Assembly (NCBI GenBank): GCA_023663655.1
Contig: JAMPGZ010000017.1
Span: 1 to 59,218 of the forward strand
Direction: 5' to 3'
DNA length: 59,218 bases
Source of the DNA: Lachnospiraceae bacterium
GTDB taxonomy: Bacteria > Bacteroidota > Bacteroidia > Bacteroidales > Muribaculaceae
The notes beneath the pieces were generated by a model. The model was not told the origin of the DNA and did not search any database. It was given only the letters and a program-made list of their open reading frames with translations. Below, in pieces: positions 498 through 8,088 of the stretch (position 1 is its first letter; every line of letters starts with the position of its first letter). A program made the translations under genes and the position numbers.

Positions 498-580
498 TAG
501 TTCCGATTGTAGGACGTCTTTGACGTCCGTTTCATGGTGGTGCCTTTCTCCGCGCCTCGGCTACGATTATAAGGTAAGTG

Positions 581-609
581 CCCCCACACGAGCAACGCGA
601 GTGTGGGGG
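581..609. repeat. CCCCCACAC hairpin, copy 1 (inverted loop)
   Basis: A perfect 9-bp stem (CCCCCACAC / GTGTGGGGG) encloses an 11-nt loop that is the exact reverse complement of the loop in copy 3 (5475-5503). The right flank (TTGAACAGGATGGA) matches the right flank of the other copies in the same orientation. It lies about 40 bp past the stop codon of the 868-aa DUF262 gene and could also act as its transcription terminator. Confidence 0.75.
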
Positions 610-650
610 TTGAACAGGATGGAAGACATTTGGTGTTAATGTGGGGCGGA

Positions 651-3257
651 TTAACCTTTCAGGAGTTGTTGGAGTTTGGTGAAGAGGTGGGGCAAGTAGG
701 ATTTGAGTTGGGTGCTGTCGGTGATGTATTTGATGCGGGTATTGTCGTCGCTTTGCTTGAAGCCTTCCGCAATGAGGATGTCATTGAGGCGGTCAAGCAA
801 CTCGGATTTCTTGGGCGAGCCTTCTTGGGTGAACTCCAGCCTAAATCTTTTCAGACTCCAATCTTTTTCAGGATCGGTTTCGGCATAAATGTCAATGAAA
901 TGGTTGCGGCGGTCTACTCTGTAGCCGTAAAAGTACATATAGGGAAGCTCATCATTTACTTTCTGCTCGTAATAACCGATTTCGTCGAAGGGCTCGGTCG
1001 GGGTATTTTTCAGTTCGCAGTACAATCCCCAAGTGTACAGCTCGCAATGGTAGCCTGACAGGCGGGAGGAGCGCATAGGCAAGATTCCTTCGCAACCTTC
1101 GCGACCCTCGATTCCCCAGAAGAAAGAGATGAAGCCCTGCTCACAGTAATCGATTGCCGAAGGATGTTTAATCAGACAATCACGCCACTGCGATCCGGTA
1201 GATTTACCCGCGAAAACGGCTTTCAGGGATTCATTAGGCAAAGAAGCATCGAAAGCGGGATCGTCAAAAACGGCTTTCACGAAACCACGCCGTTCTGTTG
1301 CCTCCTCATCCTTGTCAAGCCTGAGATGACGCTTCCATGAGAAATCACGTTTGACGTTATTCCGGGATGTTGCGGTGGAGAGCAGATTGTAATGCTGATT
1401 ATTTGACGGAAGATAGTCGCCCTTAAACAGCACCGCTCGTTCAAACCGATATCCCGCGTCATTGACTCTATCCTCATAGCTATTGGCAAACACAGCCTGA
1501 GCATCTTTTGAATATTTCACAAATTTGGCAAAATAGTCCACGTCAGCATCGTCGGTCCAGTCTACCCCATTTTCTTTTTTATAGAATTCCCAGATACCGG
1601 AAAATTCAAGTAAGAACCCGATCTGTCCGTTAAAGTATCCGTGGCACTCTGCCTCAAGAATCTCTTTCAGCCATTTATCGCCATTATCGCGCAGGATTAT
1701 CGACGCTTTAATACGCTCCTCTTCCACAAGCCATGTGGGGAACCCTTCCATGGGCTTACCCTCGGCAAGATGTTGCAGAATCGACGGCGCTTGATCGAGC
1801 AGCCGGTGAATATTCTTGATCGCCGATGAGACTTCAGAAGCGCTGTCAATACGGTTGTTATCGGCATTTGCCAAATTATAAACAACACGCATCCATTGAT
1901 TTATTCCATCATCATCGCCATATTTCAGGAGATACCCGAGATAGGCATACAGCATCACACGGTCATTGTAATTCAATTCCCTCGGAGAGAACAGGATTTT
2001 CTCCATCAACGAATTGAGCAGGAAACAGTGTCGGAAATCGGGGGAAAGGGATGATTGAGGCTTTCCGCCTGAGGCTGCGAGCCTATCCATAGCATCGATC
2101 AAGAACTCAGTGCTGTCGAGCGACAACGCATCGCCGTCACGTAAAGTGATGAATGAAAGCATCTCCCTGCCTGACTGATTGACAAGGAGCACAAACGCGG
2201 GATCGGTCTCCCCTTTTACCTGCGGATGACGTTCGATGTATTTCAGCGATAACAGGGCGCTGATAAGATTTGCCATGCGATAGTCACACATCTGTCCGCA
2301 GTCAAGCGATGAGTCAGCATCCTCGTCATTACGGTATGCCCATATCATATTGATCCATGCCGAGTCTATGCGCTCGGCAAAATACTTGTCGAGCGGCAAG
2401 GATAGAGATGAGCCATCGTTCAGGAGGCGTTTGCGATATACCGATCTGCCTGACTTCCGAAGCTCCTCTCCGATATATTCCGAATATCGTGCCTTGAAAT
2501 TTTCAAAATCGGTGAGCGGTTTGCCGCGAGAGTTCATCTTGATATACAATTCATCAGACAGATGATAGCGATCCAATTCCATAAACATGAATGTGATGAC
2601 CGGCGACTCCAGGTCAAGGAGCTTGGGCAAGAAGTCGGCTCTGTCGTGAAACAGGCTGTGTATCGCGTCAAGCATATTGAGCATTGACATAATCGTAGGA
2701 TCACGTTTCCATGAGAGATGAAACCAATTTTTGTCAGCGATGATTTCGCTTGGGGAATGGAGAATTGAGAATGGAGAATGGAAAATTGAGAATGGAGAAT
2801 TGGGGAATTGAGAATTGATGTTGTGGAGCATGAGGGCGTCGCAGAATTCGCCGGAGCTGGCACGTGTTTTATAGGTAAACCGGCAGTGTTGCCGTGACTC
2901 ATCCAATAAAGCCTCGTCAAATCGCTGCCTTAGAGAGCTGTCGGGGGTGATGCGGCTGAGATACCAGTGCAGCAGGAACAATGTGGTGAGTCTCTGCTGA
3001 CCATCCAAGGGGATAAAGGCATTGTCAGACACATTGCCGTAGATGAAATCGAGATCTCTCCCGGGCACACCTTCATCAAGATAATTATACAACGCCTTAA
3101 GGAACTCAATCCTGACCTCCTTTACAGCTTCACGTCCTTGAGCATATTCGCGTTGCAACATGGGGATGACAATCTTGAAATCATTCTCCACGAATAGCTT
3201 GAAAAATGAGGTTCTGTCGCCTTCTCCTGATATATTGTTCTTCTTCATGTCATTCAT
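651..3257 (-). CDS. DUF262 domain protein (GmrS-like, 868 aa)
   Basis: The N-terminal DUF262 domain is clear: QREYAQGR at residues 35-42 and DGQQRLTT at 85-92, the ParB/GmrS-like nucleotide-hydrolysis motif, followed by YIKMNSRGKPLTDFE near 240. DUF262 proteins occur in type IV restriction (GmrSD) and other anti-phage systems. I see no DUF1524 HNH motif in the long C-terminal part, whose function I do not recognise. The start overlaps the stop of the upstream DUF262 gene by 4 bp (ATGA), implying translational coupling; a second Met at residue 4 is possible. Residues about 147-169 are a period-7 repeat (SPFSILH type) encoded by a heptanucleotide array and look like an insertion. A partner role to the 604-aa nuclease-bearing protein is inferred. 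Confidence 0.8.
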   Translation of the reverse strand: MNDMKKNNISGEGDRTSFFKLFVENDFKIVIPMLQREYAQGREAVKEVRIEFLKALYNYLDEGVPGRDLDFIYGNVSDNAFIPLDGQQRLTTLFLLHWYLSRITPDSSLRQRFDEALLDESRQHCRFTYKTRASSGEFCDALMLHNINSQFPNSPFSIFHSPFSILHSPSEIIADKNWFHLSWKRDPTIMSMLNMLDAIHSLFHDRADFLPKLLDLESPVITFMFMELDRYHLSDELYIKMNSRGKPLTDFENFKARYSEYIGEELRKSGRSVYRKRLLNDGSSLSLPLDKYFAERIDSAWINMIWAYRNDEDADSSLDCGQMCDYRMANLISALLSLKYIERHPQVKGETDPAFVLLVNQSGREMLSFITLRDGDALSLDSTEFLIDAMDRLAASGGKPQSSLSPDFRHCFLLNSLMEKILFSPRELNYNDRVMLYAYLGYLLKYGDDDGINQWMRVVYNLANADNNRIDSASEVSSAIKNIHRLLDQAPSILQHLAEGKPMEGFPTWLVEEERIKASIILRDNGDKWLKEILEAECHGYFNGQIGFLLEFSGIWEFYKKENGVDWTDDADVDYFAKFVKYSKDAQAVFANSYEDRVNDAGYRFERAVLFKGDYLPSNNQHYNLLSTATSRNNVKRDFSWKRHLRLDKDEEATERRGFVKAVFDDPAFDASLPNESLKAVFAGKSTGSQWRDCLIKHPSAIDYCEQGFISFFWGIEGREGCEGILPMRSSRLSGYHCELYTWGLYCELKNTPTEPFDEIGYYEQKVNDELPYMYFYGYRVDRRNHFIDIYAETDPEKDWSLKRFRLEFTQEGSPKKSELLDRLNDILIAEGFKQSDDNTRIKYITDSTQLKSYLPHLFTKLQQLLKG
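2752..2816. repeat. Heptanucleotide tandem repeat inside the DUF262 gene
   Basis: About nine head-to-tail units of GAGAATT/GAGAATG on the plus strand, two of them expanded to 8 bp (GGGGAATG, GGGGAATT), sit inside the coding region. Three 7-bp units equal seven codons, so the encoded protein shows a 7-residue period. Gain or loss of a single unit would shift the frame. Similar GAGAATG-type repeats are, from memory, scattered through Bacteroidetes genomes. Confidence 0.8.
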
Positions 3258-5068
3258 GATTTTTCCGGTATAATGTAATCATTGATAGTTTTCTCGATGG
3301 CATCACGATAATGATTGCCATCCTCCTCGGTCCAGTTCTCAAGGCTGTTCACTCTCGGAGAATAGTATTTAAGAAATAGATTTTTTGTTGCGATAGGCAC
3401 GAAGACACCATTGCTGTCATTCTCGATTATGCGTTTTCGTTTAATGGGGAAAAACGCATTGCCATAGCTGCGGTTGGTGGCATAATCCAGCAGAGCCAAG
3501 TTGGAGATGTTGTCTTTGTCAGGAATTGAGGCATCCTCCTCGTTGAAACGCTTCTGGAATTTTGAAAACAGATCAGAAGCAACATCCTTATCGGGTTTAT
3601 CGTTTTTATAAAGAGAGGCTACCGCAAGCAAATCATTCTCCAATCCGGTATCGTAACCGGCATCTCGGACAGTCTCTTCAAGCGCGTCAGGTGTAAAAGC
3701 GCTTAAATAAAATTCCAAGATATCCTTACACCACATTGAAATTCCGGATTTTTCCAATGTGCGGTCGGTCTGCGAGCACACGTGCTCAATGTCCCATTTT
3801 TCAGTTTTAAAGCGATTGAACGGGAAGCGCATATCGGAATTGTCTTTCTGCAACACGGTCAATATATTGAACAATAACAGCACCTTCTTCACATCGGAAC
3901 GTGAATCGTAGGACAATTCGGAAATCTTAATGCCGCTTACAGTTTTGCTGACTTTCGACCGCAGATACTGATGGCGAAACTGCGACTTGTCGCACCGACT
4001 CCACTCAGCCATCAATTCCTCAATCTTCACACCTTGTTCCAGCAGGTACCCTATTATATGGTATAGTTCCCGATCCATGTACCACTCATTCAAGAGGTTG
4101 TAATACTGCTTGACTTTGAGCCAAACTTTTTCAGCGCCATCCGAAGCGATGAGTTCCTGAAATATGTCAAAGGTGTGGTATTTGCGGCTTTTTTGAGTGC
4201 GACCGCTTATTATGTCAAATATGAATTCTATACGGCTTGAATATTTCAGAGGGTTGTTGCTGCGATTCAGGAAATGCCAGAAACTTTCGTCATGAAGATG
4301 TTGCTCAATCAAGTTCCACTCAGTCGAGAGATTTATTTTCCTTAATTCCGCATCGGAATCGCCGAAGTTTCCCCTGCTTAAAAACAGAGCTTTAACGAGT
4401 TCGGCATCGGTAAGCGGTATTTTACCGATGTTCAGGCGGGTAAATATATCGACTGAAGATGATGTTTCATCCTCAGCGACCTCATACCATATCACTCTTA
4501 TATTGTTGGCTTTGTCGATTGTGACACCGTTGCTCTCAATTCTCTTCATTTTAAGCAACGCGTCGAGCATATCCCTCCGCAAAGAGTCATCAGCCTTACT
4601 TTCAAACCATGAGACAATCGTCAGATAAGCCTCATTCATGAAATGGAAATCGATATAAACGTCGGGGCTTACTTTGGGGCTCTTTATATTTGCCAGAAAT
4701 TCACGGGATTCCGGTCTTGTCTCATACTCGATGCCATACAGCCGGAAACTCGGATAATTATATTTTACACCATCACCAAAGTATTGCAGCAGGAGATTGA
4801 GGGTGGTGAGACGTTGCTGTCCGTCAATGACCTCATATCGGTCACCTTCGATTTTACGCACCACTACGGGCTGCAAGCAATAAAACTCGCCGTCCTTTTT
4901 GTCTCTCTTTATGAATTCGGCAAAGTCATCGAGCAATCGCTCGACCTCAACAGGCGACCAACGGTAGCCGCGTTGGTAGTCCTTTATGATGAAATCCATG
5001 CTTGATAGCTCAGAGAGTGTTTTCAGCTCCAGCCGGTTTGTGCCTGTCAATTGTTTATGTTCCGTCAT
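3254..5068 (-). CDS. DUF262-DUF1524 protein (GmrSD-like fusion, 604 aa)
   Basis: The N-terminal DUF262 domain shows KDYQRGYRWS at about 29-38 and IDGQQRLTTL at 81-90. The C-terminal region fits DUF1524, an HNH-type nuclease: WDIEHVCSQT at 425-434 holds the expected catalytic His (H429), followed by NISNLALLDYATNRSYGN and a basic KRKR stretch near 520-547. The usual Pro of the HxxP motif is not present (HVCS), a variant I believe occurs in this family. GmrSD enzymes cut modified (glucosylated) phage DNA. It is the first gene of a coupled pair with the 868-aa DUF262 gene (4-bp overlap). No TAnnTTTG box is evident in the repeat-rich upstream stretch. Confidence 0.82.
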   Translation of the reverse strand: MTEHKQLTGTNRLELKTLSELSSMDFIIKDYQRGYRWSPVEVERLLDDFAEFIKRDKKDGEFYCLQPVVVRKIEGDRYEVIDGQQRLTTLNLLLQYFGDGVKYNYPSFRLYGIEYETRPESREFLANIKSPKVSPDVYIDFHFMNEAYLTIVSWFESKADDSLRRDMLDALLKMKRIESNGVTIDKANNIRVIWYEVAEDETSSSVDIFTRLNIGKIPLTDAELVKALFLSRGNFGDSDAELRKINLSTEWNLIEQHLHDESFWHFLNRSNNPLKYSSRIEFIFDIISGRTQKSRKYHTFDIFQELIASDGAEKVWLKVKQYYNLLNEWYMDRELYHIIGYLLEQGVKIEELMAEWSRCDKSQFRHQYLRSKVSKTVSGIKISELSYDSRSDVKKVLLLFNILTVLQKDNSDMRFPFNRFKTEKWDIEHVCSQTDRTLEKSGISMWCKDILEFYLSAFTPDALEETVRDAGYDTGLENDLLAVASLYKNDKPDKDVASDLFSKFQKRFNEEDASIPDKDNISNLALLDYATNRSYGNAFFPIKRKRIIENDSNGVFVPIATKNLFLKYYSPRVNSLENWTEEDGNHYRDAIEKTINDYIIPEKS

Positions 5069-5085
5069 TTTGTTATGTTTTTATG

Positions 5086-5187
5086 TGTATCGCTTCTTCG
5101 AAGCTCAGGTTGTTGTGGTTTCTATAGCCCCCACACTCGCGGCGCTCGTGTGGGGGTTGGGCAGGATGGAACACCTCCGGTGTTCGC
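5086..5187. repeat. Duplicated hairpin unit, left copy
   Basis: This roughly 100-bp unit recurs at 5433-5540 in the same orientation. Both run from a CGAAGCTCAGGT block through the CCCCCACAC hairpin to a second small hairpin. Here hairpin 1 is 5128-5156 (9-bp stem, 11-nt loop) and hairpin 2 is 5169-5185 (GAACACC-TCC-GGTGTTC). It lies just upstream of the 604-aa DUF262 gene, in or near its leader. Confidence 0.75.
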
Positions 5188-5221
5188 CTCACGAGCGACC
5201 TCCTTTTCGGGGATGGTCAGG

Positions 5222-5323
5222 GGCACTCCTTGCAGAGTGCATTCCGGGGTGCAAGTCTCCGGGCACAGGTCGCCTGCGGCTCCCTATACCCGGCTAACCG
5301 TAAACATTGCCTTTCAGGCGGTT
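5222..5323. repeat. Mosaic repeat R3, copy D
   Basis: This is homologous to 54232-54334 and, for its core, to 21589-21644. The common core is CGGGCACAGGTCGCC followed by CGGCTCCCTRTAC and a CCTTTCAGG end. It sits between the two copies of the 100-bp hairpin unit. No coding potential beyond overlapping short frames is evident in 5069-5573. Confidence 0.7.
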
Positions 5324-5432
5324 ATGAGCACATCCGGAGAGATGATTCTCTGCAAGCAGAGCGGCTAAAACCGATAACGCTTCGCTCGGTGCCCGAATAG
5401 CGATGGATTTACCTTTCTGGTTTTTATCATCA

Positions 5433-5540
5433 ACATATCGCATCTCCGAAGCTCAGGTGCGTACTGTTTCTTAGCCCCCACACTCGCGTTGCTCGTGTGG
5501 GGGTTAGGCATGATGGAACACCGTAGGTGTTCGCCGCTAT
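5433..5540. repeat. Duplicated hairpin unit, right copy
   Basis: This is the second copy of the unit at 5086-5187. Hairpin 1 is 5475-5503 (stem CCCCCACAC, loop TCGCGTTGCTC). Hairpin 2 is 5516-5532 (GAACACC-GTA-GGTGTTC). The loop of hairpin 2 differs between copies while its stem is kept. It ends about 35 bp beyond the KAP NTPase stop codon, so it may terminate that transcript. Confidence 0.75.
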
Positions 5541-5573
5541 TTCGGGTTTATGCGGACGCGATGTATCGCGTCC

Positions 5574-7529
5574 CTACTGCCAGTCTTTCATTGACTTGCG
5601 GAAGTCGTAATTGGCGATGAGGAGGTTGGCGATGGTATCGATTACTTTGTGTTCTTCAAAGTGAGATGGCTTTTTCAGTTCAATCCAGTACTCGGGATTG
5701 TTTGTGATGTCGCCTGACATCCATCCCATTTTGTGGATGTAACGCAATTCATCGGTAAACGATGTAAAGTAGGAAGAATATCCATCGTAGGTGCGTCCTT
5801 TAAGGTAATATTCTGATTCAAGGAGAGGAGTAAGCACTGAATCAAAGCCAGCCAAAGAAGACGCCAACCGCTCATCGGTCATGATTTCATCGAATGACAT
5901 ATTCGTCATCCTTTCCGGTCTTGCGATGTGGAAATCCATCCACAGCTTCAACGATATTTCATTATTTGAATTTATCGACGGAGTAAAGGTGATGTCAAAG
6001 CTTGTGTCATCATCAATCCACATATATATGCCTCCATTGCCGGTGTTTCGCTTCAACTTATATAGTGTGATATCGGGACGCAGGGCATTGAGGCGCTTAA
6101 TCATATTGTCATACAATTTATAGATAAGATCCTTCTGGTCAAAATCCTCTGCCTTAAAAGAGGCATTGACACCGGTCACTGATGATTTGTCGAGCACTTG
6201 CTTAAGTTTTAATCCTATTGTCTCAGGATTTGATTCATTAGATTGTCCCATAATTTTTATAATCATTAAAAATAACGACATTATGTCGGGCATGTGCTGA
6301 GTGAGATACTTGTCGGTGGCACACGCCGCCTCAAGAACGTCGTCCCACTCCTTGAATTCAGGATTGTCGGCGTTGACGCTGATTCCTTCTTTATGCGCGA
6401 ATGCCTTATCCCACAGCATGAATGCAGGTCGGTGCACAAGCAATCGGTATATCTGAGGATAGCATATCTGAATTGCGACCACGATGAAGTTCAAGAGTTT
6501 TTCGTCAATCGTCGGCACCTCTTTTTGAGAAGCTCCGCACTGAGCGATGCAATCAAGCAATGAAAGCGTGTTGATCAATCGCTTTATAGATCGCGGATTT
6601 TTACCGACAGATGATTCCACCACCGCCGAAAAACGGGTTATTACATTGGGGTCGGACGCGTCAAAATCATTCAGATAACCGATATCAACCAACGCTTTCA
6701 GGACAAAGTCCATAGGACGATAACTGCTCACCGGCAAAGAGAAGGGAACCTGGATGATTTTATCGAAAAATGATCGGAATTCCCTTTCGTTTTTATCGGT
6801 GAGTTTGCCAAATTTAGGTTCAAGTCCCTTGACCACCACATCATAGTCAATGGCAAGAACAAATATGCAATTGTCAAGAGTAAACACATTTTTAAGCAGC
6901 TCAAGAATCTCCACAGCAACAGGCGGATTAAGTCGGTCAAGATCGTCGACAAACACTATCACGCCTCGCTTTCCATCAGCTTCAATACGCCGCTGTATGG
7001 CTCGTTCAAGCTCGATTTTGAGTTCCGACAAGGATGCGGTATCGTTTTCGTCAGATCCAAATGGAAAACCCGGCTGAATATTCATAACATCACCTCCCAT
7101 ACCAACAAAATCAAAACCTGTAAGATTCTTCGCAGCAAACTGCGCACCACGATATAACGCATTTCCGGCACCTCGCATAAACTTTTTGAACGTCTTTTTA
7201 GTGTCAGAATCATCTTTCGTCAATTTTTGCACAAGCCTGGCAAGAATTCTATAGACTGTAAATTCGGGCGTAGACATCATAGAATATTCCCATGTGTTTA
7301 TGCTGACACCGATAAACGGTGCGTTATCTCCGATACAAAGACTACGCTCCAAGCGGGTCATCATGGAGGTTTTTCCACTACCCCACTCCCCTTGCAGGGC
7401 AATTGTGATCGGGGCTGATGAGTTTTCTATGAATTTAATAAGTCCGTTGACATAGCGTTCGGTGCCGAAGTCATTTTCCATCTCCTTGAAAGGCATATCG
7501 GACAAGGAGGTTTTTCCAGTCTGTTTCAT
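5574..7529 (-). CDS. KAP-family P-loop NTPase (about 651 aa)
   Basis: The protein has a KAP P-loop domain: Walker A GEWGSGKTS at residues 47-55 and Walker B VFVDDLDRL at 192-200, followed by NPPVAVEILELLK, the usual KAP continuation. KAP NTPases of bacteria are often encoded in phage-defence and mobile loci; some are membrane-linked, but I see no strong hydrophobic pair inserted here. The C-terminal 300 residues are unrecognised. I chose the ATG at 7529 because family homology begins right after it; an in-frame ATG at 7652 would add 41 residues of unlikely sequence. A TATCTTTG box on the minus strand at 7842-7849 is a plausible promoter. The gene is separated from the DUF262 pair by 505 bp of repeats. 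Confidence 0.82.
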   Translation of the reverse strand: MKQTGKTSLSDMPFKEMENDFGTERYVNGLIKFIENSSAPITIALQGEWGSGKTSMMTRLERSLCIGDNAPFIGVSINTWEYSMMSTPEFTVYRILARLVQKLTKDDSDTKKTFKKFMRGAGNALYRGAQFAAKNLTGFDFVGMGGDVMNIQPGFPFGSDENDTASLSELKIELERAIQRRIEADGKRGVIVFVDDLDRLNPPVAVEILELLKNVFTLDNCIFVLAIDYDVVVKGLEPKFGKLTDKNEREFRSFFDKIIQVPFSLPVSSYRPMDFVLKALVDIGYLNDFDASDPNVITRFSAVVESSVGKNPRSIKRLINTLSLLDCIAQCGASQKEVPTIDEKLLNFIVVAIQICYPQIYRLLVHRPAFMLWDKAFAHKEGISVNADNPEFKEWDDVLEAACATDKYLTQHMPDIMSLFLMIIKIMGQSNESNPETIGLKLKQVLDKSSVTGVNASFKAEDFDQKDLIYKLYDNMIKRLNALRPDITLYKLKRNTGNGGIYMWIDDDTSFDITFTPSINSNNEISLKLWMDFHIARPERMTNMSFDEIMTDERLASSLAGFDSVLTPLLESEYYLKGRTYDGYSSYFTSFTDELRYIHKMGWMSGDITNNPEYWIELKKPSHFEEHKVIDTIANLLIANYDFRKSMKDWQ

Positions 7530-7841
7530 ATAGCAGGTATTATTTGGTAGTGTATTATTGGTGTTTTTATTCTCCGGCTGTATCAAAAAAGAGGACACAG
7601 CACTCTTTATCAGCATCTTTTCGGTCGGGCTCTGGTAAAGCCATTGGGTCAAGAATTAGAAAAAGCAGCCTGTGCCCCCCGTTGGGAGGACGCACCAAGC
7701 AAGCTTTGACCTCATCATTCGACCCATTGTTAGATTTACCAGATTTAACCGAATCAAAATTTGGTCATTGCGCGTTAATGCAAATCGTTATGTATATCTT
7801 TCGTATGTCTGTTTCGTAATTACATATTATGGTTATTTCTG

Positions 7842-7849
7842 CAAAGATA
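7842..7849 (-). promoter_or_regulatory. -7 box for the KAP NTPase gene
   Basis: CAAAGATA on plus reads TATCTTTG on minus, an exact TAnnTTTG box. Transcription would begin near 7837, giving a leader of about 300 nt to the ATG at 7529. The rest of the 7653-8080 gap shows no convincing gene. Confidence 0.5.
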
Positions 7850-8088
7850 CGATTTTTTTCCATACTCGAAATATGCTACACAACATATATACCACGGGGG
7901 CGCGCAGGCTGCCATTGCAAAGTTATAGCGGAGATGTATCAAAAAACAGCGCAAGATCGGGCAAGATGGCGTATGGTTAAAAAAATTATATAAATTGTGG
8001 ATGGTTTAAACTTTTTTTCCTCGGATGTTGTTCTTAGAGTATAAAATGACAAACGAACATTTAAAAACTCAACTATTACTTAATGTTT

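Follow-up and report, generated by a model that had tools for sequence, protein, structure and literature searches.

Two-component GmrSD systems have been shown only recently (2024-2025), in Vibrio cholerae and Escherichia coli. TgvAB of V. cholerae VPI-2 consists of two DUF262 proteins, only one of which carries DUF1524, and is reported from many bacterial orders (PMC11411939). In both TgvAB and the E. coli system GmrSD-ECOR17 the nuclease-less gene comes first, both genes are needed and the systems act on T-even phages (PMC11411939, PMC12373910). The TgvAB report names as an open question why the nuclease-bearing protein alone is insufficient (PMC11411939). The ECOR17 report divides enterobacterial systems into 15 groups, of which 3 are two-gene systems, and mentions that GmrSD systems can be toxic; co-inducing both ECOR17 genes caused gross toxicity, whereas protection was absent with either gene on its own (PMC12373910). 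That DUF262 genes occur in the vicinity of GmrSD genes had already been noted by Machnicka in 2015 (PMC4619093). The idea of a two-gene DUF262 system is therefore already published (TgvAB, GmrSD-ECOR17), in the gene order opposite to that of the pair considered here. This pair lies at one end of a 59,218-nucleotide stretch of DNA (the window; contig JAMPGZ010000017.1 of GenBank assembly GCA_023663655.1, a genome of the Muribaculaceae in the GTDB taxonomy).

The original prediction regarded two translationally coupled DUF262 genes, together with a KAP NTPase gene, as a candidate defence module. The three genes are transcribed from the minus strand in the order KAP, 604, 868, where 604 and 868 denote the two DUF262 proteins by their length in amino acids. 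The pair itself comprises:
3254..5068, minus strand: 604-aa nuclease-bearing DUF262 protein (GmrSD_N plus a divergent GmrSD_C/His-Me finger domain), first gene of the pair
651..3257, minus strand: 868-aa nuclease-less DUF262 protein, second gene of the pair
3254..3257, minus strand: ATGA shared by the 604 stop and the 868 start; the gap has a median of -4 across 88 related pairs

The overlap lies where it had been placed, and would couple the translation of 868 to that of 604. No further PF03235 match was found elsewhere in the window's 2.9-Mb genome at E 0.001.

The 604 protein had been described as a DUF262-DUF1524 fusion, and the Pfam analysis agrees with this: it matches GmrSD_N (E 1e-29) and, below the curated cutoff, GmrSD_C (PF07510; E 6e-4), a domain matched at E 0.01 by 33 of the 44 aligned 604-type sequences. 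Residues Q32 R33, D82GQQR, F209 and N213 are invariant in these 44 rows, so that the QR, DGQQR and FxxxN motifs are all present, while E428, H429, N523 and N532 are invariant in both the 34-row and the 44-row alignments of relatives. H429, N523 and N532 make up the H..N..N pattern of a DUF1524 His-Me finger, which is found in 604 only and not in 868. On these motifs, 604 is predicted to be the nuclease subunit, with a divergent His-Me/DUF1524-type domain.

The 868 protein has a DUF262 core without a nuclease, as had been proposed. It matches GmrSD_N only (Pfam, E 3e-18), and among 54 868-type proteins neither GmrSD_C (at E 0.01) nor DUF7834 was detected in any. Q35 R36, D85GQQR and N242 are invariant in the 54 rows; at position 238, four residues ahead of N242, Y stands in place of F, so the FxxxN motif is present in part only. 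The predicted model has a helical middle (residues ~298-612) followed by a variable C-terminal alpha/beta part (~640-868). Divergence within the pair is unequal, with faster change in the C-terminal part of 868 than in the nuclease part. This suggests that 868 is the recognition subunit.

The 868 frame also contains an insert:
2751..2821, no strand assigned: short-unit repeat within the 868 frame, residues ~147-170

It is an in-frame AATTCTC-like repeat in a low-confidence region of the predicted model, and it was not seen in the three relatives aligned there (L141, L157 and L159; L numbers denote loci and G numbers genomes). Translated stretches resembling it occur at two further sites in the window's genome and also in G092.

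The two genes are found together across bacteria. In a tblastn search of 72,556 plasmid records, 868 had relatives in 17 and 604 in 16, and all of these 16 were among the 17. The seven plasmid-search loci that were opened come from Bacteroidota, Bacillota (two), Spirochaetota, Campylobacterota, Alphaproteobacteria and Actinomycetota; in each of them the 604-type gene precedes the 868-type gene. With a profile built from 34 868-type proteins we assembled 94 wider loci, i.e. the best 80 of 100 confirmed in named genomes and 14 in IMG/VR. A 604-type gene stood immediately upstream of 868 on the same strand in 88 of the 94; the median gap in these pairs was -4, with values of zero or below in 62/88, within 20 bp in 87/88 and a largest gap of 37. 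Elsewhere, the 604-type gene had been missed by gene calling and was recovered by tblastn (L206), was present upstream of 868 in a shortened form (L210) or was represented only by its tail at the contig start (L213), and two contigs began inside 868 (L161, L220). In Victivallis (L221, 1878-5666) the two genes form a natural one-frame fusion, with the 604-part at residues 121-632 and the 868-part at 640-1198; in the frame as listed, the initial ~118 residues seem to be spurious.

Searches from the other side gave the same picture. The 604 profile listed 78 loci in IMG/VR, and of the 16 strongest, which were examined, 14 lay on the contigs of the 868-profile search and two were new. The 868-type gene adjoined the 604-type gene in 15 of these 16, the sole exception seen being L263; the remaining 62 loci were weaker, mostly short DUF262 matches. 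All 16 loci opened for a strong 604 match among 86 matching family genomes (L141-L156, with the L147 gene detected by tblastn) had an adjacent 868. The original prediction had allowed for homologues that usually lie apart, which is not what we found: the two DUF262 genes adjoin each other far more often than chance would allow. The nuclease-bearing and nuclease-less genes form, as had been suggested, one unit, which recurs in unrelated phyla and was once naturally fused. Two other explanations were rejected, as chance neighbours would not show the fixed adjacency seen in the wider loci, and a single GmrSD gene split in two would not give a full DUF262 in each gene with both genes conserved across phyla.

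We consider the pair to be a two-component GmrSD-family (type IV-like) restriction system, in which 604 is the nuclease, 868 is an obligate and most likely recognising partner, and KAP stands outside the core; we give this reading a probability of about 0.7. Gating of a nuclease by NTP (nucleoside triphosphate) binding to DUF262 has been reported for SspE and BrxU. By analogy, the DUF262 domain of 604 would bind NTP and gate the C-terminal His-Me finger nuclease. 868, as the obligate partner with a DUF262 site of its own, would license this nuclease within a hetero-complex, and its fast-diverging C-terminal part most likely recognises the invader, through modified DNA or a phage signal. KAP would be an exchangeable accessory ATPase, repeatedly joined to DUF262 systems in the family and often preceded by a candidate RNA. 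Such systems would form another class, widespread and put together differently from the first, in which the nuclease subunit is the better conserved of the two, its partner diverges fast and a natural fusion of both exists. On such a class, it could be tested cleanly whether specificity lies with the partner.

The region upstream of the pair, and the end of the pair itself, contain the following features:
5574..7529, minus strand: P-loop NTPase of the KAP family, with 651 aa when read from the likely ATG (the listed frame begins at TTG 7652)
5069..5573, no strand assigned: KAP-604 intergenic stretch of 505 bp
5125-5188 and 5472-5535, no strand assigned: two copies of a 64-bp unit between KAP and 604, each holding a GC-rich hairpin
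578..641, no strand assigned: third 64-bp hairpin unit, just beyond the 868 stop, a possible terminator

The presence of a KAP NTPase upstream on the same strand is confirmed (PF07693, E 8e-38). Its listed TTG start at 7652, however, is probably too early, since KAP relatives start where ATG 7529 lies. KAP is not coupled to the pair, as 505 bp with two copies of the repeat separate them. The 64-bp unit contains a 29-nt GC-rich hairpin and occupies three intergenic sites around the pair.

In a family set of 397 genomes, KAP relatives (E <=1e-20) were found in 21 genomes, 604 relatives (E <=1e-10) in 86 and both in 10. All 21 KAP genomes were opened, and KAP stood beside DUF262 genes of the two pair classes in nine: the window, G022, G504, G494, G264, G321, G312 (DUF7834 class, see below), G332, whose contig ends after the 604-type gene, and G445, where KAP follows the 868-type gene at the contig start. 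As G504/G494 and G264/G321 are near copies, there are about seven separate arrangements, and KAP lies upstream of the DUF262 genes in eight cases and downstream in L130. The remaining 12 had no DUF262 gene beside KAP, four of them being cut by contig ends, within KAP or on its downstream side (G335, G266, G183, G251); G251 was kept out of the nine, with a pair ~6.5 kb from the KAP piece on the other strand. L127 and L128 have a single common 6507-bp block (90.9%), which begins ~650 bp ahead of KAP and ends with the 868 stop, and no other common piece >150 bp outside it; for L125 and L126 the common block measures 6672 bp (89.8%), and 517 bp of one flank are shared besides. Such blocks indicate that KAP and the pair can move together.

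On the other hand, the window pair's nearest relative (L141) has no adjacent KAP and the nearest relative of the window KAP (L117) has no pair, so that joint descent of the two was ruled out. The related pairs L154-L156 have no KAP alongside. No KAP relative was seen in the 94 wider loci, within flanks of up to 10 kb and often less, and no DUF262 gene near the more distant KAP loci L138-L140, L334-L337 and L347-L350. In L118, KAP adjoins a pair of the DUF7834 class, and more distant KAP relatives have as neighbour an HsdR gene (L346) or a GmrSD fusion of the single type (L339, with a copy in L340). L339 and L340 belong to G739, in which one copy of KAP with the fusion lies amid repeated 263-aa genes, in a cassette-like setting. 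Directly upstream of KAP in L117 (5648-6028), L122, L123, L125, L126 and L069 there is a small zinc-finger-like protein with CKYCG repeats; no open reading frame (ORF) of this type is listed between the window KAP and the next gene. After KAP, L117, L123 and L131 have a related 281-295-aa protein, whose L117 copy has no Pfam match; a frame of ~300 aa, which Pfam assigns to WYL in the case of L117, follows as well in L117 and L131.

Upstream of KAP lie two further features, which with KAP form a separate lead:
7571..7892, minus strand: conserved stretch, with 77-86% identity to eight other KAP loci across 229-325 bp
7616..7755, minus strand: core long hairpin with covarying pairs, a candidate structured RNA without an Rfam match

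The eight relatives (L117, L118, L120, L121, L122, L125, L126 and L069) have KAP proteins 45-73% identical to that of the window, and no long ORF common to them and the window was seen in this stretch. Between the window and L117, DNA identity is 71.6% in KAP and 86.2% in the upstream stretch. The 244-nt piece 7568-7811 folds with a z value of -2.75, and 2 of 200 shuffles do as well. The window and the eight KAP loci served to build a nine-sequence covariance model, which found, among 49 KAP and pair loci, only those nine places and four weak reverse-strand matches; at E 0.01 it matched 70 of 277 family genomes, the eight best all upstream of KAP. In a 19-sequence alignment 94.9% of cells pair, both sides changed in 16/43 pairs, and the covariation score was 0.335 versus 0.196 for shuffled and <=0.124 for slid alignments. 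Some results weigh against an RNA: one of five measures failed (33 further pair types versus 34.8 in shuffles, reached in 462/500), the alignment was fitted to the covariance model and so leans towards it, and the nine close sequences alone contain no covarying pair. None of 4227 Rfam models matched, the sole hit at E up to 1 being a fungal small nucleolar RNA on the opposite strand (7457-7573; E 0.35, sub-gathering).

A dispersed repeat was ruled out, as the element is single-copy in its own genome, and G-U pairs together with the double-sided changes argue against a mere DNA palindrome. TATCTTTG at 7842..7849 on the minus strand matches TAnnTTTG, which we take to be the Bacteroidota -7 consensus. 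The 12 second-tier copies that were opened (L360-L371) have no KAP within ~1.5 kb on either side; they lie near short unknown genes and, in one case, an FtsZ/tubulin-like gene, and a WYL regulator was supported by Pfam in one of three neighbours tested. That the hairpin is a regulatory or sensing RNA is a guess. Rather doubtfully, one may picture a modular restriction platform in the family, in which a conserved ~140-nt RNA with one long covarying hairpin would control KAP or sense for it, and a pair belonging to either the window class or the DUF7834 class would serve as exchangeable restriction effector. The weaker relatives beside other genes would, if genuine, point to an RNA linked to defence more generally, of which the library searched gives no description.

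The relationship of KAP to the pair can be seen in several ways. It might be an integral third component, so that RNA, KAP and pair form one system with KAP as an ATP-driven sensor or translocator. Its position beside pair genes in 9/21 genomes, in both orders, and the L127/L128 block, which takes in all three genes and goes no further than the 868 stop, would fit this, but 76/86 family genomes with a 604 relative and 94/94 wider loci have no KAP match, the nearest relatives of pair and KAP are not shared, and KAP accompanies other restriction genes as well (L118, L339, L346); we find this improbable. At the other extreme, KAP would just share a defence island with the pair and have no functional link with it. 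The 12/21 genomes without an adjacent DUF262 gene (4 of them cut by contig ends), the differing closest relatives and the distant KAP loci speak for this, and we see it as quite possible, albeit not the expected answer. Against it stand the roughly seven separate KAP-DUF262 arrangements, two of them kept as blocks in two genomes each, when random placement would give ~0.004 adjacent cases in 21, a rough figure that ignores the clustering of defence genes. The proposal of KAP as third component thus survives in part: it does occur beside DUF262 genes, contrary to the condition under which the original prediction would have failed, and is supported as a facultative, lineage-limited, restriction-associated accessory, in that capacity only and outside the core of the pair.

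For the pair itself, 868 might be a brake or antitoxin of the 604 nuclease and not a recognition subunit. The overlapping two-gene order and the possible toxicity of GmrSD systems, noted in the ECOR17 report, are compatible with this; however, the same report gives toxicity on inducing both genes and no protection by either alone (PMC12373910), and the natural fusion in L221 fits a permanent complex better, which makes a brake highly improbable. A closer competitor holds that the pair is TgvAB with its genes swapped, 868 being a diverged TgvA and 604 a diverged TgvB. Here, TgvAB-like pairs stood in for TgvAB, and DUF7834 after DUF262 in the nuclease-less partner is our own criterion, drawn from the TgvAB-like pairs analysed: the four scanned (L077, L078, L079, L118) have GmrSD_N with DUF7834, then GmrSD_N with GmrSD_C. 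In the DUF262 tree 604 (25 rows), 868 (19) and TgvA-like proteins (9) each form one group (support 91, 99 and 92), and TgvB-like proteins (9) nearly do so, needing two changes, which in the first tree are due to L166, a row labelled single. From the first tree an 868-type row (L125) was dropped, lacking the motif used for domain cutting; the second omits four long branches, one duplicate and L050 (pairing unknown), with five rows first labelled single relabelled 604, as their loci had been cut short. The two-component logic is identical, and approximately unbiased (AU) tests reject neither 868 with TgvA-like as one group (p 0.641, likelihood above the free tree) nor 604 with TgvB-like (p 0.138); moreover, 604 and 868 stand side by side in the tree with a support of only 33. 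Nevertheless, the groups separate in the tree, DUF7834 occurs in 4/4 TgvA-like and 0/54 868-type proteins, and in profile comparison only the DUF262 part aligns, in both cases. Among five plasmid TgvAB-like loci, the nuclease-less gene is first in four (L254 is broken by an insertion sequence) and type I restriction-modification genes flank three (L251-L253, not L255), while no such gene was found among five window proteins scanned, the contig ending 650 bp past 868. We regard swapped TgvAB as unlikely, albeit worth keeping in view.

Returning to the reading of the pair as a distinct two-component system, its parts have counterparts in several described systems. KAP shares its domain and profile similarity with the defence NTPases QatA and PifA, but its QatA equivalog score is 80.9, against a cutoff of 600. 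SspE and DndI, which sense phosphorothioates, serve as effectors in systems that encode DNA modification as well, and in BrxU and single-chain GmrSD one gene suffices. GmrS1/GmrSD2 of ECOR17, compared by description only, is likewise a GmrS doublet with an HNH in one member, in which both genes are needed and T-even phages are restricted; there, GmrS1 comes first and the nuclease residues are E582/H583, versus E428/H429 in 604. TgvAB also has two DUF262 proteins with the nuclease in one only, and the window pair probably works like it. However, the nuclease-less gene is first in TgvAB and second in the window and in the 88 adjacent pairs, and the catalytic histidine is H571 in TgvB and H429 in 604. 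With the opposite order, the lack of DUF7834 and tree groups that stand apart but would allow a common origin by the AU tests, the pair cannot be filed as TgvAB. Its parts are ordinary, and what is probably new is the build, that of a widespread, nuclease-first two-component GmrSD-like system.

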